A stretch of DNA of 64,000 bases, taken from Melioribacteraceae bacterium. Lineage in GTDB: Bacteria > Bacteroidota > Ignavibacteria > Ignavibacteriales > Melioribacteraceae. Positions within the stretch are counted from its first letter, which is position 1, and each line of letters starts with the position of its first letter. Location: assembly GCA_022181065.1 (NCBI GenBank), contig BQMY01000090.1, positions 1-64,000 on the forward strand, in the 5' to 3' direction. Shown here piece after piece: positions 20,012 to 28,325 of the stretch. Made by a program: the position numbers and the translations under genes. Under the pieces are notes generated by a model. It did not search any database and was not told the origin of the DNA. It saw only the letters and a list, made by a program, of their open reading frames with translations.

Positions 20012-20160
20012 AAATTCCCTTGAATCAATTTTATTGTTTGGTTGTTATATAACTGTTAAAATATTGAAAACATTTTAGATAAAAAATAACAGCTATAAGC
20101 TAAATCATTCGCGATAAATTTTGTAATTTTACTGATTAGCTTTTTTTGAAACGGAATATT

Positions 20161-22941
20161 ATGAGCGACACAGAATTTAACGATATAGATAAAATTATTA
20201 TTAAAGGGGCTCGTGAACACAACCTCAAATCGGTTGATCTTGAAATCCCCCGCGATAACCTGATAGTTTTCACAGGCGTGAGCGGCAGCGGGAAATCGTC
20301 CCTTGTTTTTGACACAATTTACGCTGAAGGTCAGCGACGCTATGTTGAGAGTTTATCATCTTACGCTCGCCAGTTCCTTGAAAGAATGAACAAACCTGAA
20401 GTAGATTTTATTAAGGGTATTAGTCCGGCAGTCGCGATAGAACAGAAAACCGGTGCCCGGAATCCGCGATCAACTGTTGGTACAAGTACAGAGTTATACG
20501 ATTATCTCAGATTGCTCTTTGCCCGTATTGGGAAAACTTACTGTTTCAAGTGTAATAAAGTTGTAAAAAAAGATACTACCGGAACGGTGGTGGATTGGCT
20601 TGAACAGCAGGATGCAGAGGGGCGATTTTACCTCGGATTTCCGATACATGCTCATGAAGGCAGAACTGTTAAGGAAGAACTTGAGCTACTCAAGAAAAAA
20701 GGTTTTTTCCGCTTATTTTATAAAAATAAACTTGTCGATCTGAATGAAAATAATGGTGGAATACGCAGTAAAAACAATCTTTACGTGGTTATTGACAGAT
20801 TTAAAATCAAAAAAGGTGAAGTGCGTGAAAAACTGGCTGATTCAATAGAGGTTACTTTCAAGGAAGGTGAAGACAGATTAGCAATAATTAATGCTGATAC
20901 AAACAAGGTTGTGCAGTTCAACAAGTTTTATGAGTGTTGTGGAATCAGGTATGAAGAGCCGGAGCCAAGATTTTTCTCGTTTAACAATCCCTTTGGCGCT
21001 TGTCCCGTTTGTCAGGGCTTCGGAAGGGTGATGGGTTATGATTCTGAACTGGTAATTCCTAACAAAAATCTTACGATTCTCGAAGGCGCTATAGCACCAT
21101 GGAGAACTGTCAAGTATAGCAAGTATTTGCGGGATCTGGTTCGTGACGCAAAAGTCGAAGGAATTCCCGTGAACGTTCCATTTAAGGAATTGACCACGAC
21201 TCAGGAAAACAAAATCTGGAAAGGATTCGGGAAATTTGTTGGAATACAGGGTTATTTCAATAAACTTGAAGAAAAAACCTACAAGATGCACATTCGCATC
21301 CTTCTCAGCAAGTATAGAGGATATACGAAGTGCCATGCCTGTAAAGGTTCGCGATTACGACGGGAAGCGCTTCAGGTAAAAATTGATGATAAATCGATTT
21401 TCGATATTGTTAGTATGTCCATTGAGAAAGCATATGAATTTATAAAAGGGATTCAGCTTTCGGATTACGAGATTGCAATTGGAGAAAGGGTTCTTACCGA
21501 AATTGAAAAACGATTGTCATTCCTCAATAATGTAGGACTTGGTTATCTTACTCTTGACCGATTGAGTAGTACACTTTCGGGTGGAGAAACACAGAGGATA
21601 AATCTCGCTACTTCGCTTGGATCAGCATTAATTGGAACGTTGTATGTACTGGACGAACCCAGTATTGGTTTGCATCCGAGAGATAACGCCCGATTGATAA
21701 ATATATTAAAATCCCTGCGTGATATTGGTAATACTGTACTCGTGGTTGAGCACGACGCGGAAATGATGCGAGAAGCAGATTATATTGTTGATATGGGTCC
21801 CGCCGCCGGTTCAGGCGGAGGAGAAATTGTAGCATATGACAAGTATGACAATATACTCAAAGACAAAAATAGTCTTACCGGAAAATATTTATCGGGCAAA
21901 CTTGAAATTCCCGTTCCCGAAGAAAGAAGAACAGAAAAGAGTGCGGCAATTTCGATTTACGGCGCGAGCGAAAATAATCTCAAAAACGTAAATGTTGATA
22001 TTCCTCTGAATAAGTTTGTTGTGATCACAGGTGTATCGGGCTCAGGTAAAAGCACGCTCATCCATGACATCCTTTACGGTGGGGTGACCAAAATGATGGG
22101 CGGCAATCCTCCAAAACTTGGCAAATATACCGAGATAAAAGGCTACAAGGAAATTGAGGAAATTCAGATAGTTGATCAATCACCTATCGGCAAATCGCCA
22201 CGCTCAAATCCGATAAGTTACGTTAAGGGTTATGAAGCTATCCGTGAAATGTTCGCAAATACCCGAACCGCAAAATCTCGAGGCTATAAACCGGGGTTTT
22301 TCTCCTTTAACGTTCCGGGAGGACGTTGCGAAACGTGCCAAGGAGAAGGTTTTGTAAAAATTGAGATGCAGTTTCTCGCCGACCTATATCTCGAATGTGA
22401 AGATTGTAAAGGTACGCGCTTCAAAAAAGAAGTTCGTGATATACTGTACAAGGGTAAAAATATTGTTGATGTACTTGATATGACAGTTGATGAAGCCCTG
22501 GAATTTTTTGAGGATCATAAGAAGATCAAACCGTACATTCAGGTACTTGCTGATGTGGGAATGGGGTATATCAAGCTCGGACAGCCATCCAACACATTAT
22601 CAGGCGGTGAAGCACAGCGGATTAAACTTGCTCAGCACCTGGCACAGCAGAAAAGAGAGAAACATAATTTGTTTATCTTTGATGAGCCTACAACTGGTCT
22701 GCATTTTCATGACATATCAAAACTTCTTAACTGTTTTAATATGCTGCTGAAAAATGGTAACTCGGTAGTAATTATAGAGCATAACCTTGATATCATCAAA
22801 TGCGCTGATCATATTATTGATTTGGGGCCTGACGCGGGTGATAAGGGAGGTGAAATTGTTGTAACCGGCACTCCGGAAGAAGTTGTGTTATGTGAGAATT
22901 CTTTTACGGGTAAATTCCTTAAAGATTATTTGAAAGGATGA
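20161..22941 (+). CDS. uvrA: Excinuclease ABC subunit A
   Basis: This is the damage-recognition ATPase of nucleotide excision repair, 926 residues, which loads UvrB onto lesions. Two ABC modules are visible: Walker A at about 38-46 (GVSGSGKSS) and 624-632 ([10 protein letters not shown]630). Signature motifs LSGGETQR and LSGGEAQR are followed by DEPS and DEPT. Zinc-binding cysteine pairs include [15 protein letters not shown]723-x2-C726 and CEDCKG. I choose the ATG at 20161 (MSDTEFND) over the TTG at 20146. Its stop overlaps the next gene by ATGA, indicating co-translation. Confidence 0.97.
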
Positions 22942-23600
22942 TCTACCTTATTTTATTGATACTGCTGATAGTAATCTACACTATTGTTTATGCCATAATT
23001 GCTCTGATGTTCGCTTCCAGTCAGCAAACGGCAAAAACGAAATTGGGTGTTGTGTTTAATCACCGCTTGGAGAAAAATGGTATTTTATCGGATGCTTCTG
23101 TATTGAGACTTGAACATTGCGCTTATATGTACAAGCTTGACAAGTATGAAAATGTATTTTGCGTTGGAGGATATGACCCTGAAAAATTCATCTTCTCATC
23201 GGAGATAAATTCTCAGTTCCTGATAGAATCCGGAATAGAACCTGAAGATATTCATGAGGTTTCGTATTCGTTTAATACATGGTCAAACTGTACAGAAACA
23301 TTAGATATCATGCGGGAATATAAATATTTCAGCGCTACTTTGATCTCATCGCCACTTCACTTACTGAGAATTGCCGCAACATTAAACAGGATAGGATTTG
23401 AAGTGCAAATATTGTTTTCATCACCCGATATATTTTCTTATTTCAGCGGTATCAGTTTTTTATCAATCGCACGGGAAGTGTTGGAAGAATCAATAAAAAT
23501 AATGACGCTCTTGATTCCGAAACATTTATATCAAAAAATAATTCTTGGATCACTTCAGAGTGGAAAACTTAAACGATTCAGACGAATTTCCAAATTTTAG
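22938..23600 (+). CDS. DUF218 (YdcF/SanA-like) membrane-anchored protein
   Basis: This 220-residue protein has one N-terminal transmembrane segment (about residues 2-26). A DUF218-like domain follows: VVFNHRLEKNG start, SSEINSQFLIESGI, SNTWSNCTET-like spacing (SYSFNTWSNCTETLDI) and SSPLHLLRIAATLNRIGFEV. DUF218 proteins such as SanA and YdcF are associated with envelope integrity; their biochemistry is not settled. The first ATG overlaps the uvrA stop by four bases, so it is translated from the uvrA transcript. Homology is moderate and the family call is by pattern only. Confidence 0.65.
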   Translation: MIYLILLILLIVIYTIVYAIIALMFASSQQTAKTKLGVVFNHRLEKNGILSDASVLRLEHCAYMYKLDKYENVFCVGGYDPEKFIFSSEINSQFLIESGIEPEDIHEVSYSFNTWSNCTETLDIMREYKYFSATLISSPLHLLRIAATLNRIGFEVQILFSSPDIFSYFSGISFLSIAREVLEESIKIMTLLIPKHLYQKIILGSLQSGKLKRFRRISKF

Positions 23601-23633: not shown

Positions 23634-23656
23634 CACAAAAACAAGACTTGAAAATC

Positions 23657-24610
23657 ATGTCGAAAACAGCCGTTGTTATATTAAGTGCCGGTGAACCTTT
23701 AAAACCGGATGCTCTTAAAAATTTCTTTTTACGACTGTATAATGATCCGTACCTATTCGCGTTTCCGTACTTCAGAAATTTATTAACCAAATTTCATGCA
23801 GGTCGGAAATTAAAACCGGCTATCTTTGAGTACGAGTCTGTAATAAATCAGTCAGAATATAAAAATAGCGTTCGCGAATTTGTAAATAAGTTAAAGGGTG
23901 AGTTAAAAGCCCGCAATCTTGACGCCGATGTTTACCACGCGGCAAGATATACTGTTCCGCTGATAAGGAAGATATCAATAAAAGTAACTGACGGGAATTA
24001 CGATTCAGTTGTAGTAACTACCGTAAATCCTTTTTATTCAAAAGTAATTTCGGGATCTTTTTTCAGGGAGTGGGAAAAAGTTCACGGTCAGAAAAAAAAC
24101 AGCGTGAATGTAACTGAATTTTATAATCAGAAAAATTTTGTTGCGGCAGTGAGTGAACGAATTGCTATCACACTCAGGGATCATCAACTTGAAAAACCGG
24201 ATAATCCTCTGATATTATTCGCTGCTGAAAGCGCTTCCCCAATCGAAGTGGAAAACGGTGACCCGTACGTTGATCAACTCAAGGAAACTTGCGAACTTGT
24301 GATGTCAAATTTTTCAGGTTATAAATATAAACTCGGGTACTACAATCATTTGATTCTGGATAAAATGTTGTCCCCCTCTGTTGACGATCTAATAAAAAAC
24401 GCGGATACTAAAAATGTTGTCGTCGTCCCGTTAAGTTCACCAGGACTAGATTTCCACACGTTTTATAAATTGAAAATTGAGTTGAAAAATATAGCCACAG
24501 CAAGCGGCATTAAGACTTATTGTGTAGCCGGTGGAATTTTGGAAAGTGAGAAATTTAACACATGTATGGTAAGCATTGTTAAAGGCGCGTTAAAATTTGC
24601 TGAAATGTAA
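23657..24610 (+). CDS. hemH: Ferrochelatase homologue with swapped catalytic residues
   Basis: This 317-residue protein is of the HemH/CpfC family, which inserts Fe(II) into proto- or coproporphyrin. Family features run end to end: AVVILSAGEP start, FFLRLYNDPYL, a Y-x2-I region, and GDPYVDQLKET. The active site departs from the family. In characterised enzymes the metal-insertion residues are His in SAH (H183 in Bacillus subtilis) and Glu in DHLE (E264). Counting back from the shared GDPY without gaps, the first position is E191 (AAES). Counting from the VP motif, the second is H267 (LDFHT). Both are replaced, reciprocally. The frame is intact and the gene sits in a haem operon, so this looks like a working variant rather than a pseudogene. 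I prefer the ATG at 23657 to the TTG at 23648. Confidence 0.82.
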   Translation: MSKTAVVILSAGEPLKPDALKNFFLRLYNDPYLFAFPYFRNLLTKFHAGRKLKPAIFEYESVINQSEYKNSVREFVNKLKGELKARNLDADVYHAARYTVPLIRKISIKVTDGNYDSVVVTTVNPFYSKVISGSFFREWEKVHGQKKNSVNVTEFYNQKNFVAAVSERIAITLRDHQLEKPDNPLILFAAESASPIEVENGDPYVDQLKETCELVMSNFSGYKYKLGYYNHLILDKMLSPSVDDLIKNADTKNVVVVPLSSPGLDFHTFYKLKIELKNIATASGIKTYCVAGGILESEKFNTCMVSIVKGALKFAEM

Positions 24611-24631
24611 TTATTATCACAGTTGGTATTT

Positions 24632-26020
24632 ATGGAAAATAAAAAAAGAAATATTGTTATAATTGGTGCCGGAATTTCAGGATTGGCTACTGCGCATCTC
24701 CTTGAGAAAGCCGGATATAAATCAACTATTATTGAGTCGGGCTCAAACCCGGGCGGCGCGATGCAAACTTTGATAGAGGATGATTTCCTCGTTGATTTTG
24801 GTCCTAATAGCGGACTCGAGACTACCCCGGTAATAAGTGAAATCGCGAAAGATGTCGGACTTAAAGAAGAAATGATTTACGCCAACGAGGAATCTAATAC
24901 TCGTTACATCCTTCGTAACGGGAAATTGATGGCGTTACCTACTTCCGGTCCGGCGTTTATAAGTTCAAAATTGTTTTCTCTTTCGGCAAAACTGAGATTG
25001 ATGAAAGAGCCTTTTGTGGGAAAATCTGACGATGGGTATTACCAGTCAATCGCGGATTTTGTACGTAGAAGATTGGGTAGTGAATTTTACGATTACGCAA
25101 TCGATCCTTTTGTATCTGGCGTGTTTGCGGGAGACCCTGAGAAACTCTCCGTTAAATCAGCTTTTCCTAAACTGTACCGACTTGAAGAACTATACGGCGG
25201 ATTGGTCAAAGGAATGATTCGTGGTGCGCGTGAAAGAAAGAAAAACGCTGAAAAATCTAAACAGAACGCGAAAATGTTCTCCTTCCTTTACGGTATGCAA
25301 ACTTTCCCCGAGGCAATAGCAAAATCTTTAAGGTCTAAAAAGATTTATAACACCTCCGTGCAGAAAGTTGAAAAAGTTGAAACCGGATATAAATTGAACA
25401 TAAAAACCGGGGAGGAGATAAAAGAAATTTCTGCAGATTTGGTGATATCTACATCTCCGGCAGTGGCAACCGGAAAGATATTCGGTGGAATCGACGCAGA
25501 ACTCAAACGCCATCTCGATGAAATATATTATCCGCCTGTAATGGTATTGTATCTCGGGTATAATAAATCGGATATTAAACGTCCTCTCGACGGGTTTGGA
25601 TATCTGATTCCGAGCAAGGAGAAGCGGAAGTTTCTCGGCGCAATCTGGTCATCAACTATATTCCCCAACAGATGCGCATCCGATAAAGCCTCTTTTACGG
25701 TTTTTGTGGGGGGAGCGCGTAATCAGGAATTGATGAAACAGGACGCCAACAAGATTGTTGACGATGCGATCGCTGAATTTTCTGAAATAACAGAAGTAAC
25801 CGGAAAACCGGTGTACATCAAGCATAAAATCTGGGAAAGAGCAATACCCCAATACAATCTGGGACATATTGAACATGACCGCTATTTCGAAAAATTTGAA
25901 TCCGATAATGCAGGTTTGTTTCTTAGCGGAAACTATCGCGGTGGTATATCGGTAGGCGATTGTGTTAAAAGCGCCGACTTGACCGCCAAACGTGTAATTG
26001 AATTTATAGAAAAGAAATAA
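24632..26020 (+). CDS. hemG: Protoporphyrinogen/coproporphyrinogen oxidase, FAD type
   Basis: This is an FAD-dependent oxidase of the HemY/CgoX/PPOX type, 462 residues. It converts protoporphyrinogen IX (or coproporphyrinogen III) to the porphyrin. The N-terminal dinucleotide fold reads [19 protein letters not shown] with a glutamate at the second strand end (IIES). Further family blocks are [35 protein letters not shown] and, near the end, [13 protein letters not shown]. It directly precedes ferrochelatase action in the pathway and follows the hemH homologue by 21 bases. The start is the ATG at 24632; the TTG at 24623 is less likely. Confidence 0.93.
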
Positions 26021-26033
26021 ATGCGAGGAATTT

Positions 26034-27020
26034 ATGGCTAATTATCCAACACAAAGATTGAGAAGATTGAGATATAATCCCGTTGTGAGGGATATGGTTC
26101 AGGAAACCAAACTCGACAAAAGTGATTTTATTTATCCGCTGTTTGTCGTTGAAGGTGACAACATAAAAAAAGAAATAAAATCGATGCCGGGAGTATTTCA
26201 GCTCTCAATAGATAAACTTGTTGAAGAGTGCAAGGAACTTGTTGAGTTGGGAATTCGCTCAATAATTCTTTTTGGCATTCCGGCGCACAAGGATGAAGTC
26301 GGCTCGGAAGCATACAACGAAAACGGCATTATTCAGCGAGCTATTCGCGCGATAAAAGGAAACGTTGAGGGAATGCTCGTGATCACCGATGTTTGCCTTT
26401 GCGAATATACATCCCACGGTCATTGCGGTGTGCTGAACGGTGAAGAAATATTGAATGACGAGACCGTATCGCTCCTTGCGAAAGAAGCGATTTCGCATGC
26501 CGAGGCGGGTGCTGACATGATCGCACCATCCGATATGATGGACGGAAGAATCGCGTCAATCCGCAAAGCCCTTGATTATAAAGGGTTCACACATATTCCG
26601 ATAATGAGCTACGCCGTGAAATATGCCTCGGGATTTTACGGACCATTTCGTGATGCGGCAGAATCGACTCCGGCATTTGGCGACAGAAGATCACATCAGA
26701 TGGATATCGCCAACATCGAGGAAGCAATCAGGGAGGCGGAATCCGATATTCAGGAAGGCGCTGACATTATCCTGGTCAAACCTGCTCTTGCGTATCTTGA
26801 CGTAATCAAAACTTTGAAGGACAGATACCCCGTACCGATGGCAGCCTACCAGGTGAGTGGTGAATACTCAATGATCAAGGCAGGCGCGCAACTTGGCTGG
26901 ATTGACGAAGAACGAGTAATGGTTGAATCTCTTACCTCAATAAAACGCGCCGGCGCGAAGATGATTCTCACCTATTTCGCGAAGGATATGGCTAAATATC
27001 TTGATAAAACGAGAAAATAA
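26034..27020 (+). CDS. hemB: Porphobilinogen synthase (5-aminolevulinate dehydratase)
   Basis: This enzyme condenses two 5-aminolevulinate molecules to porphobilinogen. It has 328 residues, normal length. The zinc-site cysteines are C121, C123 and C131 in the [12 protein letters not shown] block, so it is the zinc-dependent type. The Schiff-base lysines are K196 (YAVKYAS) and K249 (ILVKPA). The ATG follows GAGGAA. It lies 13 bases after hemG and 15 before hemL, clearly in one operon. Confidence 0.97.
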
Positions 27021-27035
27021 AATTTTGGAGTTGTA

Positions 27036-28325
27036 ATGAATATTACGAGAAGTAAAGAACTTTTTACAGAAGCACAAAAATATATACCGGGTGGCGTGAA
27101 CTCTCCGGTTAGGGCGTTTAAGTCGGTTGGCGGCGACCCGCTTTTTATTGAAAGAGGAGAAGCGGCGCACATGTACGATACCGATGGTAACGCTTACATT
27201 GATTATATCGGAAGCTGGGGACCGCACCTTTTCGGGCATAACCCCACCTTCATCATGGAAGCCCTTTACAAGGCTATGGAAAACGGTACATCATTCGGCG
27301 CGCCTACCGAAATGGAAGTTAAAATGGCAAAGCTGATTACCGAACTTGTGCCCTCTGTTGAGCGTGTACGAATGGTAAACAGCGGTACAGAAGCAACCAT
27401 GAGCGCAATCCGTGCAGCACGTGGCCACACAGGAAAAGAAAAGTTTATCAAGTTTGAAGGCTGCTATCATGGTCACGCCGATTATTTCCTGATTAAAGCC
27501 GGTTCCGGTGCGTTGACGCTTGGTGTACCCACTTCGCCCGGTGTTACAAAAGGTAACGCCGCTGATACACTTCTTGCCGATTTTAACGATATTGAATCCG
27601 TTAAAAAAGTAGTTGCAGCAAATAAAGGTGAAGTCGCCGCGATTATTATTGAACCTATCGCCGGAAATATGGGAGTTATCCCTGCTACTAACGAGTTCCT
27701 TACACAGTTACGCCAGATTTGTGACGAGGAAGGTATTGTCCTTATATTCGATGAGGTTATGACCGGATTTCGTGTAGCTGCAGGTGGAGCGCAGGAAGTT
27801 CTCGGCATCACACCCGATCTTTCCACATTTGGTAAAATTATCGGTGGCGGACTACCGGTTGGTGCGTTTGGTGGTAAAAGAGAGATTATGGAAACAATCG
27901 CTCCGGTTGGACCTGTTTACCAGGCGGGTACGTTAAGCGGTAACCCCCTCGCTATGAGTGCCGGATACGCCGCGTTGAAGTATATTCAGGATAACCCGCA
28001 GGTTTACACAGACCTTGAAGAAAAGAGCAAATTCCTCAATGACGGACTTGCAGACAATCTCAAACAGCTCGGCAAAAATTACTATATGACACGCATCGGC
28101 TCAATGAGTTGTATGTTCTTCACCGAGGAAGAGGTAACAGACTTCCAGTCCGCTGTGAAATCGGATACAGCATTGTACGGCAGGTATTTCAACGAAATGT
28201 TGAAGCGTGGTGTATATCTTGCTCCGGCACAGTTCGAGGCTATGTTTGTCTCTACCGCCCACACCCGGAGCGACCTTGAGCATACAATTAAGGCGCATTA
28301 CGAAGCGTTGAAAGCGATAATATAA
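27036..28325 (+). CDS. hemL: Glutamate-1-semialdehyde 2,1-aminomutase
   Basis: This PLP enzyme makes 5-aminolevulinate from glutamate-1-semialdehyde in the C5 pathway, 429 residues. The PLP lysine is K267 in the TFGKIIGGGLPVGAFGG block. MVNSGTEATMSAIRAARG and CYHGHADYFL are also typical. The ATG follows TTGGAG. It ends the haem operon. Its presence shows that this organism makes 5-aminolevulinate from glutamyl-tRNA; hemA, hemC, hemD and hemE are not in the window. Confidence 0.97.
   Translation: MNITRSKELFTEAQKYIPGGVNSPVRAFKSVGGDPLFIERGEAAHMYDTDGNAYIDYIGSWGPHLFGHNPTFIMEALYKAMENGTSFGAPTEMEVKMAKLITELVPSVERVRMVNSGTEATMSAIRAARGHTGKEKFIKFEGCYHGHADYFLIKAGSGALTLGVPTSPGVTKGNAADTLLADFNDIESVKKVVAANKGEVAAIIIEPIAGNMGVIPATNEFLTQLRQICDEEGIVLIFDEVMTGFRVAAGGAQEVLGITPDLSTFGKIIGGGLPVGAFGGKREIMETIAPVGPVYQAGTLSGNPLAMSAGYAALKYIQDNPQVYTDLEEKSKFLNDGLADNLKQLGKNYYMTRIGSMSCMFFTEEEVTDFQSAVKSDTALYGRYFNEMLKRGVYLAPAQFEAMFVSTAHTRSDLEHTIKAHYEALKAII

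Follow-up and report, generated by a model that had tools for sequence, protein, structure and literature searches.

The window analysed here, 64,000 nt from the beginning of contig BQMY01000090.1 of a Melioribacteraceae bacterium (GCA_022181065.1), includes a run of genes in the order uvrA-like, DUF218, winH, hemY, hemB, and hemL, where winH designates a gene for a ferrochelatase-like protein with an exchanged catalytic pair (Table 1). The gene upstream of DUF218 is presumed to be uvrA-like from the look of its sequence, and the names hemB and hemL are likewise presumed. A sequence-only reading of this DNA had put the ferrochelatase gene at 23657-24610 on the + strand, in agreement with the list of open reading frames; depending on the start codon, the product has 320 residues (TTG at 23648) or 317 (ATG at 23657), and the residue numbers Glu191, Asp265, and His267 used below are counted from the ATG. 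The spacing to the hemY gene 3′ of winH is given as 12 (TTG) or 21 (ATG) bases. Promoter-like and terminator-like sites around winH showed no excess over shuffled sequences.

Table 1. Positions, within the 64,000-nt window, of winH, codons of interest within it, and neighboring genes.
Feature	Position	Strand	Basis or remark
DUF218 gene	22938..23600	+	directly upstream of winH; 5′ codons overlap 3′ end of uvrA-like gene
winH, ferrochelatase-like protein with exchanged catalytic pair	23648 (TTG) or 23657 (ATG)..24610	+	ORF, PF00762, TIGR00109, predicted fold
Tyr59 to Ser66, corresponding to human Y123 and S130, which bind propionate 6; both kept	23831..23854	+	alignments; PMC9133952
Codon of Glu191, aligned with the catalytic His (human H263, B. 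subtilis H183)	24227..24229	+	alignments
Codon of Asp265, aligned with human H341, the third residue in the lower hydrogen-bond network	24449..24451	+	alignments; PMC9133952
Codon of His267, aligned with the catalytic Glu (human E343, B. subtilis E264)	24455..24457	+	alignments
Protoporphyrinogen oxidase (hemY/hemG type)	24623..26020	+	TIGR00562 327.1 bits, cut-off 97.85
Presumed hemB (porphobilinogen synthase)	26034..27020	+	73-80% identity to gene in haem loci of four relatives
Presumed hemL (glutamate-1-semialdehyde aminomutase)	27036..28325	+	71-79% identity to gene in haem loci of five relatives

The product belongs to the Pfam ferrochelatase family (PF00762, 135.3 bits against a cut-off of 27, over residues 6-312 of 320), and at 109.8 bits it falls below the 124.6-bit cut-off of the NCBI hemH equivalog TIGR00109, which is passed both by a native hemH of a relative (L034, 346.1 bits) and by a second ferrochelatase of the same genome (L001, 252.5 bits), to be discussed below.

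The catalytic His of ferrochelatase (human H263) is absent from winH, with Glu191 in its place, and so is the lower-network Glu (human E343), with His267 in its place. Alignment to human ferrochelatase and 56 relatives bears out both halves of this exchange as first proposed from the sequence: Glu191 lies in a gap-free block around AAESASPIEVENGDPY, and His267 in the gap-free block VPLSSPGLDFHTFY. By homology, the two would face each other. The order and class supplied 133 aligned rows (80 from the tree set plus 53 retrieved in addition; the small fragments G325 and G331:C423 and the weak matches of the order-wide search are excluded). Of these, 130 have His/Glu at these positions and winH alone has Glu/His; the remaining two come from a single gene divided between contigs, each with one catalytic position. 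Both positions are invariant among the native-type relatives. From amino acid frequencies, we estimate that if both positions changed at random, the combination of Glu and His would arise in perhaps one of every several hundred to a thousand cases. The reciprocal exchange is somewhat tidier than simple loss would suggest.

The exchange is not an isolated event. The rest of the family pattern had been thought to be retained, but winH keeps 27 and changes 30 of the 57 columns that show no variation across 50 native-type relatives (drawn from the family, order, and class), making the exchange part of a wholesale alteration. Known active-site contacts provide a frame for these changes: as set out in PMC9133952, the human enzyme holds propionates through Y123, S130, and R115, has an upper network of N75, M76, R164, and Y191, and a lower one of H263, H341, and E343. 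In human numbering, the changes in winH are N75S, M76A, Y191N, H263E, Q302Y, S303N, W310M, F337S, D340L, H341D, E343H, E347K, and D349K, and F110, Y123, S130, R164, and Y165 are kept; the counterpart of R115 depends on the alignment, being Lys51 by hand in the 56-relative alignment and Leu52 in the alignment used for invariant columns. The machinery for metal and protons is thus mostly altered, with contacts to one propionate remaining. Losses are not significantly concentrated in the catalytic loops, which for this comparison were of our own choosing: 9/31 invariant residues are kept inside them and 23/45 outside (p 0.063).

Could a protein altered in this way still be an enzyme? With the triad His263/His341/Glu343 replaced by Glu191/Asp265/His267, an acid-His network could persist, and winH could conceivably be an active chelatase or dechelatase in which His and acid have exchanged roles under the porphyrin, inserting another metal, removing metal, or acting on another porphyrin of the haem route. 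The retention of Y123, S130, and R164, the intact reading frame, and the intact predicted fold are in keeping with this, as are two cases from related chelatases: the metal-binding His207 of the cobaltochelatase CbiK is contrasted with Glu264 of B. subtilis HemH (PMC4063343), and FetB is described as inserting manganese (PMC13402209). Such an enzyme is nevertheless unlikely: the residues proposed as upper metal ligands (N75, M76, and Y191) are changed, as are the gate residue F337, W310, and E347; the arrangement appears in no other relative among the 133 rows; and according to PMC9133952 every H263 variant studied is inactive. The E343K variant described there is also inactive, yet co-purifies with protoporphyrin.

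A search of the genome for a second hemH, suggested in the sequence-only reading, had a positive outcome. A gene at G000:C82:89303-90298 (L001; PF00762, 322 bits) encodes a ferrochelatase with the normal pair in place, reading SYHGLPE and ADCLET at the catalytic His and Glu; it precedes a gene that looks symporter-like. The protein carries a Cys-x4-Cys-x10-Cys-x4-Cys insert, which fits the CX(1,11)CX(1,11)C motif given in PMC8529089 and so points to a [2Fe-2S]-type ferrochelatase; the same paper reports the insertion motif in one of two Ignavibacteriae sequences. The C82 copy is probably the working enzyme of this genome, and winH has both sequence marks of a pseudoferrochelatase: its essential His is absent, and a second ferrochelatase with that His is present in the genome. 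Profiles for HemQ and CbiX had no match in the genome; the tetrapyrrole-methylase profile had two, both of which look like RsmI by their motif. With these three profiles, the protoporphyrin route (HemN, HemY) was the sole tetrapyrrole branch found, so that any porphyrin ligand of winH would come from the haem route.

These two ferrochelatases represent distinct sequence groups, and winH can be assigned to one of them. It scores 184.1 bits with a profile of the native type, 142.5 bits with one of natives from other families of the class, and 21.4 bits with one of the second, [2Fe-2S]-insertion type, whose insert it lacks. It is 30-33% identical to four native copies, which share 61-75% with each other; by comparison, the adjacent hemY is 56-62% identical to those of five relatives, which share 60-68% among themselves. 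In the tree, winH falls with 38 native rows of the order at 100/96, in an analysis whose bootstrap had not settled; its end branch, at about 8 changes per column against a median of 0.19, leaves its exact place unsure, and grouping it with the second type is not rejected by an AU test (p 0.182). It is therefore gene order and profile scores, rather than the tree, that point to native hemH: judged by its position and sequence, winH is the native hemH of this lineage.

Gene order was compared with the haem loci of relatives, where it runs ccsA-hemA-hemC-hemD-hemE-hemN-(hemH)-hemY, the names other than hemH and hemY having been assigned by the look of the sequences. In G237 and G302, hemH and hemY are separated by other genes; where the available stretch reaches, hemB, hemL, or both occur farther along the loci. 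The proposal that the haem operon is preserved around winH holds for its downstream part, with hemY, hemB, and hemL following, and fails for its upstream part: ccsA to hemN, including hemA-C-D-E-N, are on contig C76, which has no hemH. The haem genes of this genome are therefore split between C76 and the window, where winH stands behind the genes at 20146-23600, and are together in the relatives whose loci were read. Contamination and a mixed assembly were rejected as explanations, since the assembly is rated 100% complete with 0.1% contamination and contigs C76 and C90 carry complementary haem genes.

Both types of ferrochelatase are found across the family, in varying combinations. A PF00762 match is present in 71 of 79 family genomes, mostly of the native type alone. 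G157 and G322 have both types, each with a normal pair; in G319, G332, and G301 the second type is the only match, and the haem loci examined there have no hemH beside hemY, with hemN followed directly by hemY in G319 and G332 and by one opposite-strand gene and then hemY in G301. Second-type copies from family genomes are 65-69% identical to the C82 copy. In the neighboring family f2, 21 genomes have a match (the class-sample table includes these and two from f3), 13 to the second type only and eight to the native type only. The family thus includes genomes with the native type only, with both, and with the second type only, the present genome having both with its native copy transformed; from these states in relatives, we infer that the native type came first and the second type later.

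One genome of the same order has two native-type hemH genes with normal His/Glu (L195 and L196, on G386:C86 and C27), and several genomes from other classes of the phylum, among them G670, G501, G510, and G658, contain two or three ferrochelatase-like matches each, in open frames 374-486 residues long. No ferrochelatase match was found in 120 of 294 class genomes or in eight of the 79 family genomes (G299, G274, G300, G312, G316, G317, G321, and G336); these eight also have either no hemY match or a weak one (best E 6e-11), and haem synthesis may have been lost in them.

The presence of both genes in one genome raises the idea that the two proteins are both needed for a single ferrochelatase activity, perhaps forming a mixed dimer with winH as its non-catalytic subunit; human ferrochelatase works as a dimer (PMC9133952). 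The C82 type, however, is the sole match in G319, G332, and G301 and in 13 of the 21 f2 genomes, and so needs no partner there, and winH belongs by profile to the other group. A division of labor of this kind is accordingly very improbable.

Redundancy could also have a simpler outcome: with the C82 enzyme present, winH might be a functionless gene in drift that has yet to acquire its first stop codon. Other fates of the gene are on record among relatives, including the three genomes just named, with no hemH beside hemY, and G278 of the same class, where pieces of a broken hemH with stop codons (G278:C4:22774-23489) lie beside an intact hemH (L015), another fate of a redundant ferrochelatase gene. 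The base composition of winH is also compatible with drift: GC content at the three codon positions is 0.454, 0.319, and 0.347, at the low end of the neighboring genes, whose third positions range from 0.350 to 0.466. Against this, when native hemH was allowed to evolve neutrally in simulations, all 300 runs acquired stop codons at each of six divergence levels, spanning 70 down to 31% identity, so that even at 70% an open frame was not retained by chance. The alignment of winH with its relatives has few gaps, its length is almost unchanged, and a fold is predicted (pLDDT 89.6, pTM 0.89): the model has the ferrochelatase fold, with a Foldseek TM of 0.89 to human 4kmm and a Z of 37.0 to human ferrochelatase 1hrk (rmsd 2.3 over 316 residues). 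Most likely, then, winH is no drifting relic, and decay caught before its first stop is improbable. One part of the model is less secure. The lip of the pocket, residues 31-70, including Y59 and S66, has a pLDDT of 65-73, against 82-96 in a native relative modeled from the same set, and this weakens the case for porphyrin binding.

Searches for other examples of the exchange yielded none. A degenerate DNA pattern for Ala-Glu-x9-GDPY-x2-Gln-hydrophobic, requiring an exact fit, had 17 matches in 84,980 species genomes (a collection that may not include the present genome), none ferrochelatase-like by eye; blastp of the 13 with frames of more than 100 residues gave short, weak matches, the best with an E of 0.078. 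A protein scan of the same 84,980 genomes confirmed no swapped sequence. Protein searches of the family (79 genomes), order (164), and phylum (395) had no match above 152.1 bits except winH, but these missed the C82 copy of its own genome as well, and are therefore blind to distant copies. The catalytic residues were read for the order and part of the class, and within this range winH is the only sequence of the Glu/His kind found. Literature searches, which left most subscription papers outside their reach, found nothing on this His/Glu exchange in ferrochelatase, nor on ferrochelatase paralogs or duplicates with regard to the catalytic histidine.

The reading favored here, to which we would give a probability of roughly 0.6, is that winH is a pseudoferrochelatase retained under selection once another chelatase had taken its place, and probably serves as a non-catalytic partner that binds porphyrin or haem or has a regulatory role. 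A second ferrochelatase, of the [2Fe-2S]-insertion type and represented here by the C82 gene, would at some point also have been present in the lineage, and its product most likely now makes the haem. The operon copy, freed from iron insertion, would then have lost its His, its Glu, and most residues around the porphyrin center, remaining folded (as predicted), full-length, and encoded directly ahead of hemY. It most likely no longer inserts iron; beside HemY, it may hold or pass on protoporphyrin or haem, or tune HemY itself. Three readings had been offered from the sequence: loss of catalysis in a genome that encodes another chelatase, inverted active-site geometry, and a shift in metal preference. 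The first fits best, with the C82 gene found, and the other two are weaker, with both faces of the porphyrin site changed. That Glu191, Asp265, and His267 form a working inverted network, giving a chelatase or dechelatase with a new metal or porphyrin preference that evolved in place after the takeover, is accordingly doubtful.

Some consequences follow for annotation and for the study of this fold. That a gene is called hemH from its haem-operon position is no guarantee that it encodes the chelatase. Surveys can lose ferrochelatase homologues that lack the essential His, as with the 14 sequences removed in PMC8529089. The winH locus presents such a case in context, with an open gene before hemY, an evident replacement enzyme, and relatives with one gene, both, or only the other, and offers a test of what role a chelatase fold may take once iron insertion ceases to be its job. 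An inverted pair, if active, would bear directly on the separate roles of His and Glu.

Among known proteins, winH is most readily compared with the native HemH of its relatives (PF00762, TIGR00109). It shares their fold, length, position before hemY, GDPY block, Y123, S130, and R164; it differs in that their His and Glu are unexchanged, and in its changes at H341, W310, F337, Y191, and E347.

The class II chelatase-fold proteins CbiK, SirB, and FetB (of Porphyromonas gingivalis) have the same fold, and in the structure comparison of the winH model they are listed below 40 ferrochelatase rows, with Z of 17-21. They are shorter, act on other metals or substrates, and lack close sequence kinship with winH; the His207 of CbiK probably sits at the very place of HemH Glu264. 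The [2Fe-2S]-insertion ferrochelatases, such as the C82 copy (L001), belong to the same Pfam family as winH, but form a separate sequence group and carry the Cys-x4-Cys-x10-Cys-x4-Cys insert.

Closest in kind are the His-less duplicates. Of the 14 sequences without the essential His mentioned above, 11 are described in PMC8529089 as duplicates beside a functional copy, and a C. elegans pseudoferrochelatase is named in PMC9133952; as described, they share with winH the absence of the essential His and the presence in the genome of a second, functional-looking ferrochelatase, and pseudoferrochelatases as a kind are thus already known. Set beside the published description of the 14, winH additionally has His in place of its Glu, keeps its place before hemY, and has relatives representing stages of displacement. 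What winH adds to this kind is the double exchange, its retained position before hemY, and the range of states found among its relatives.
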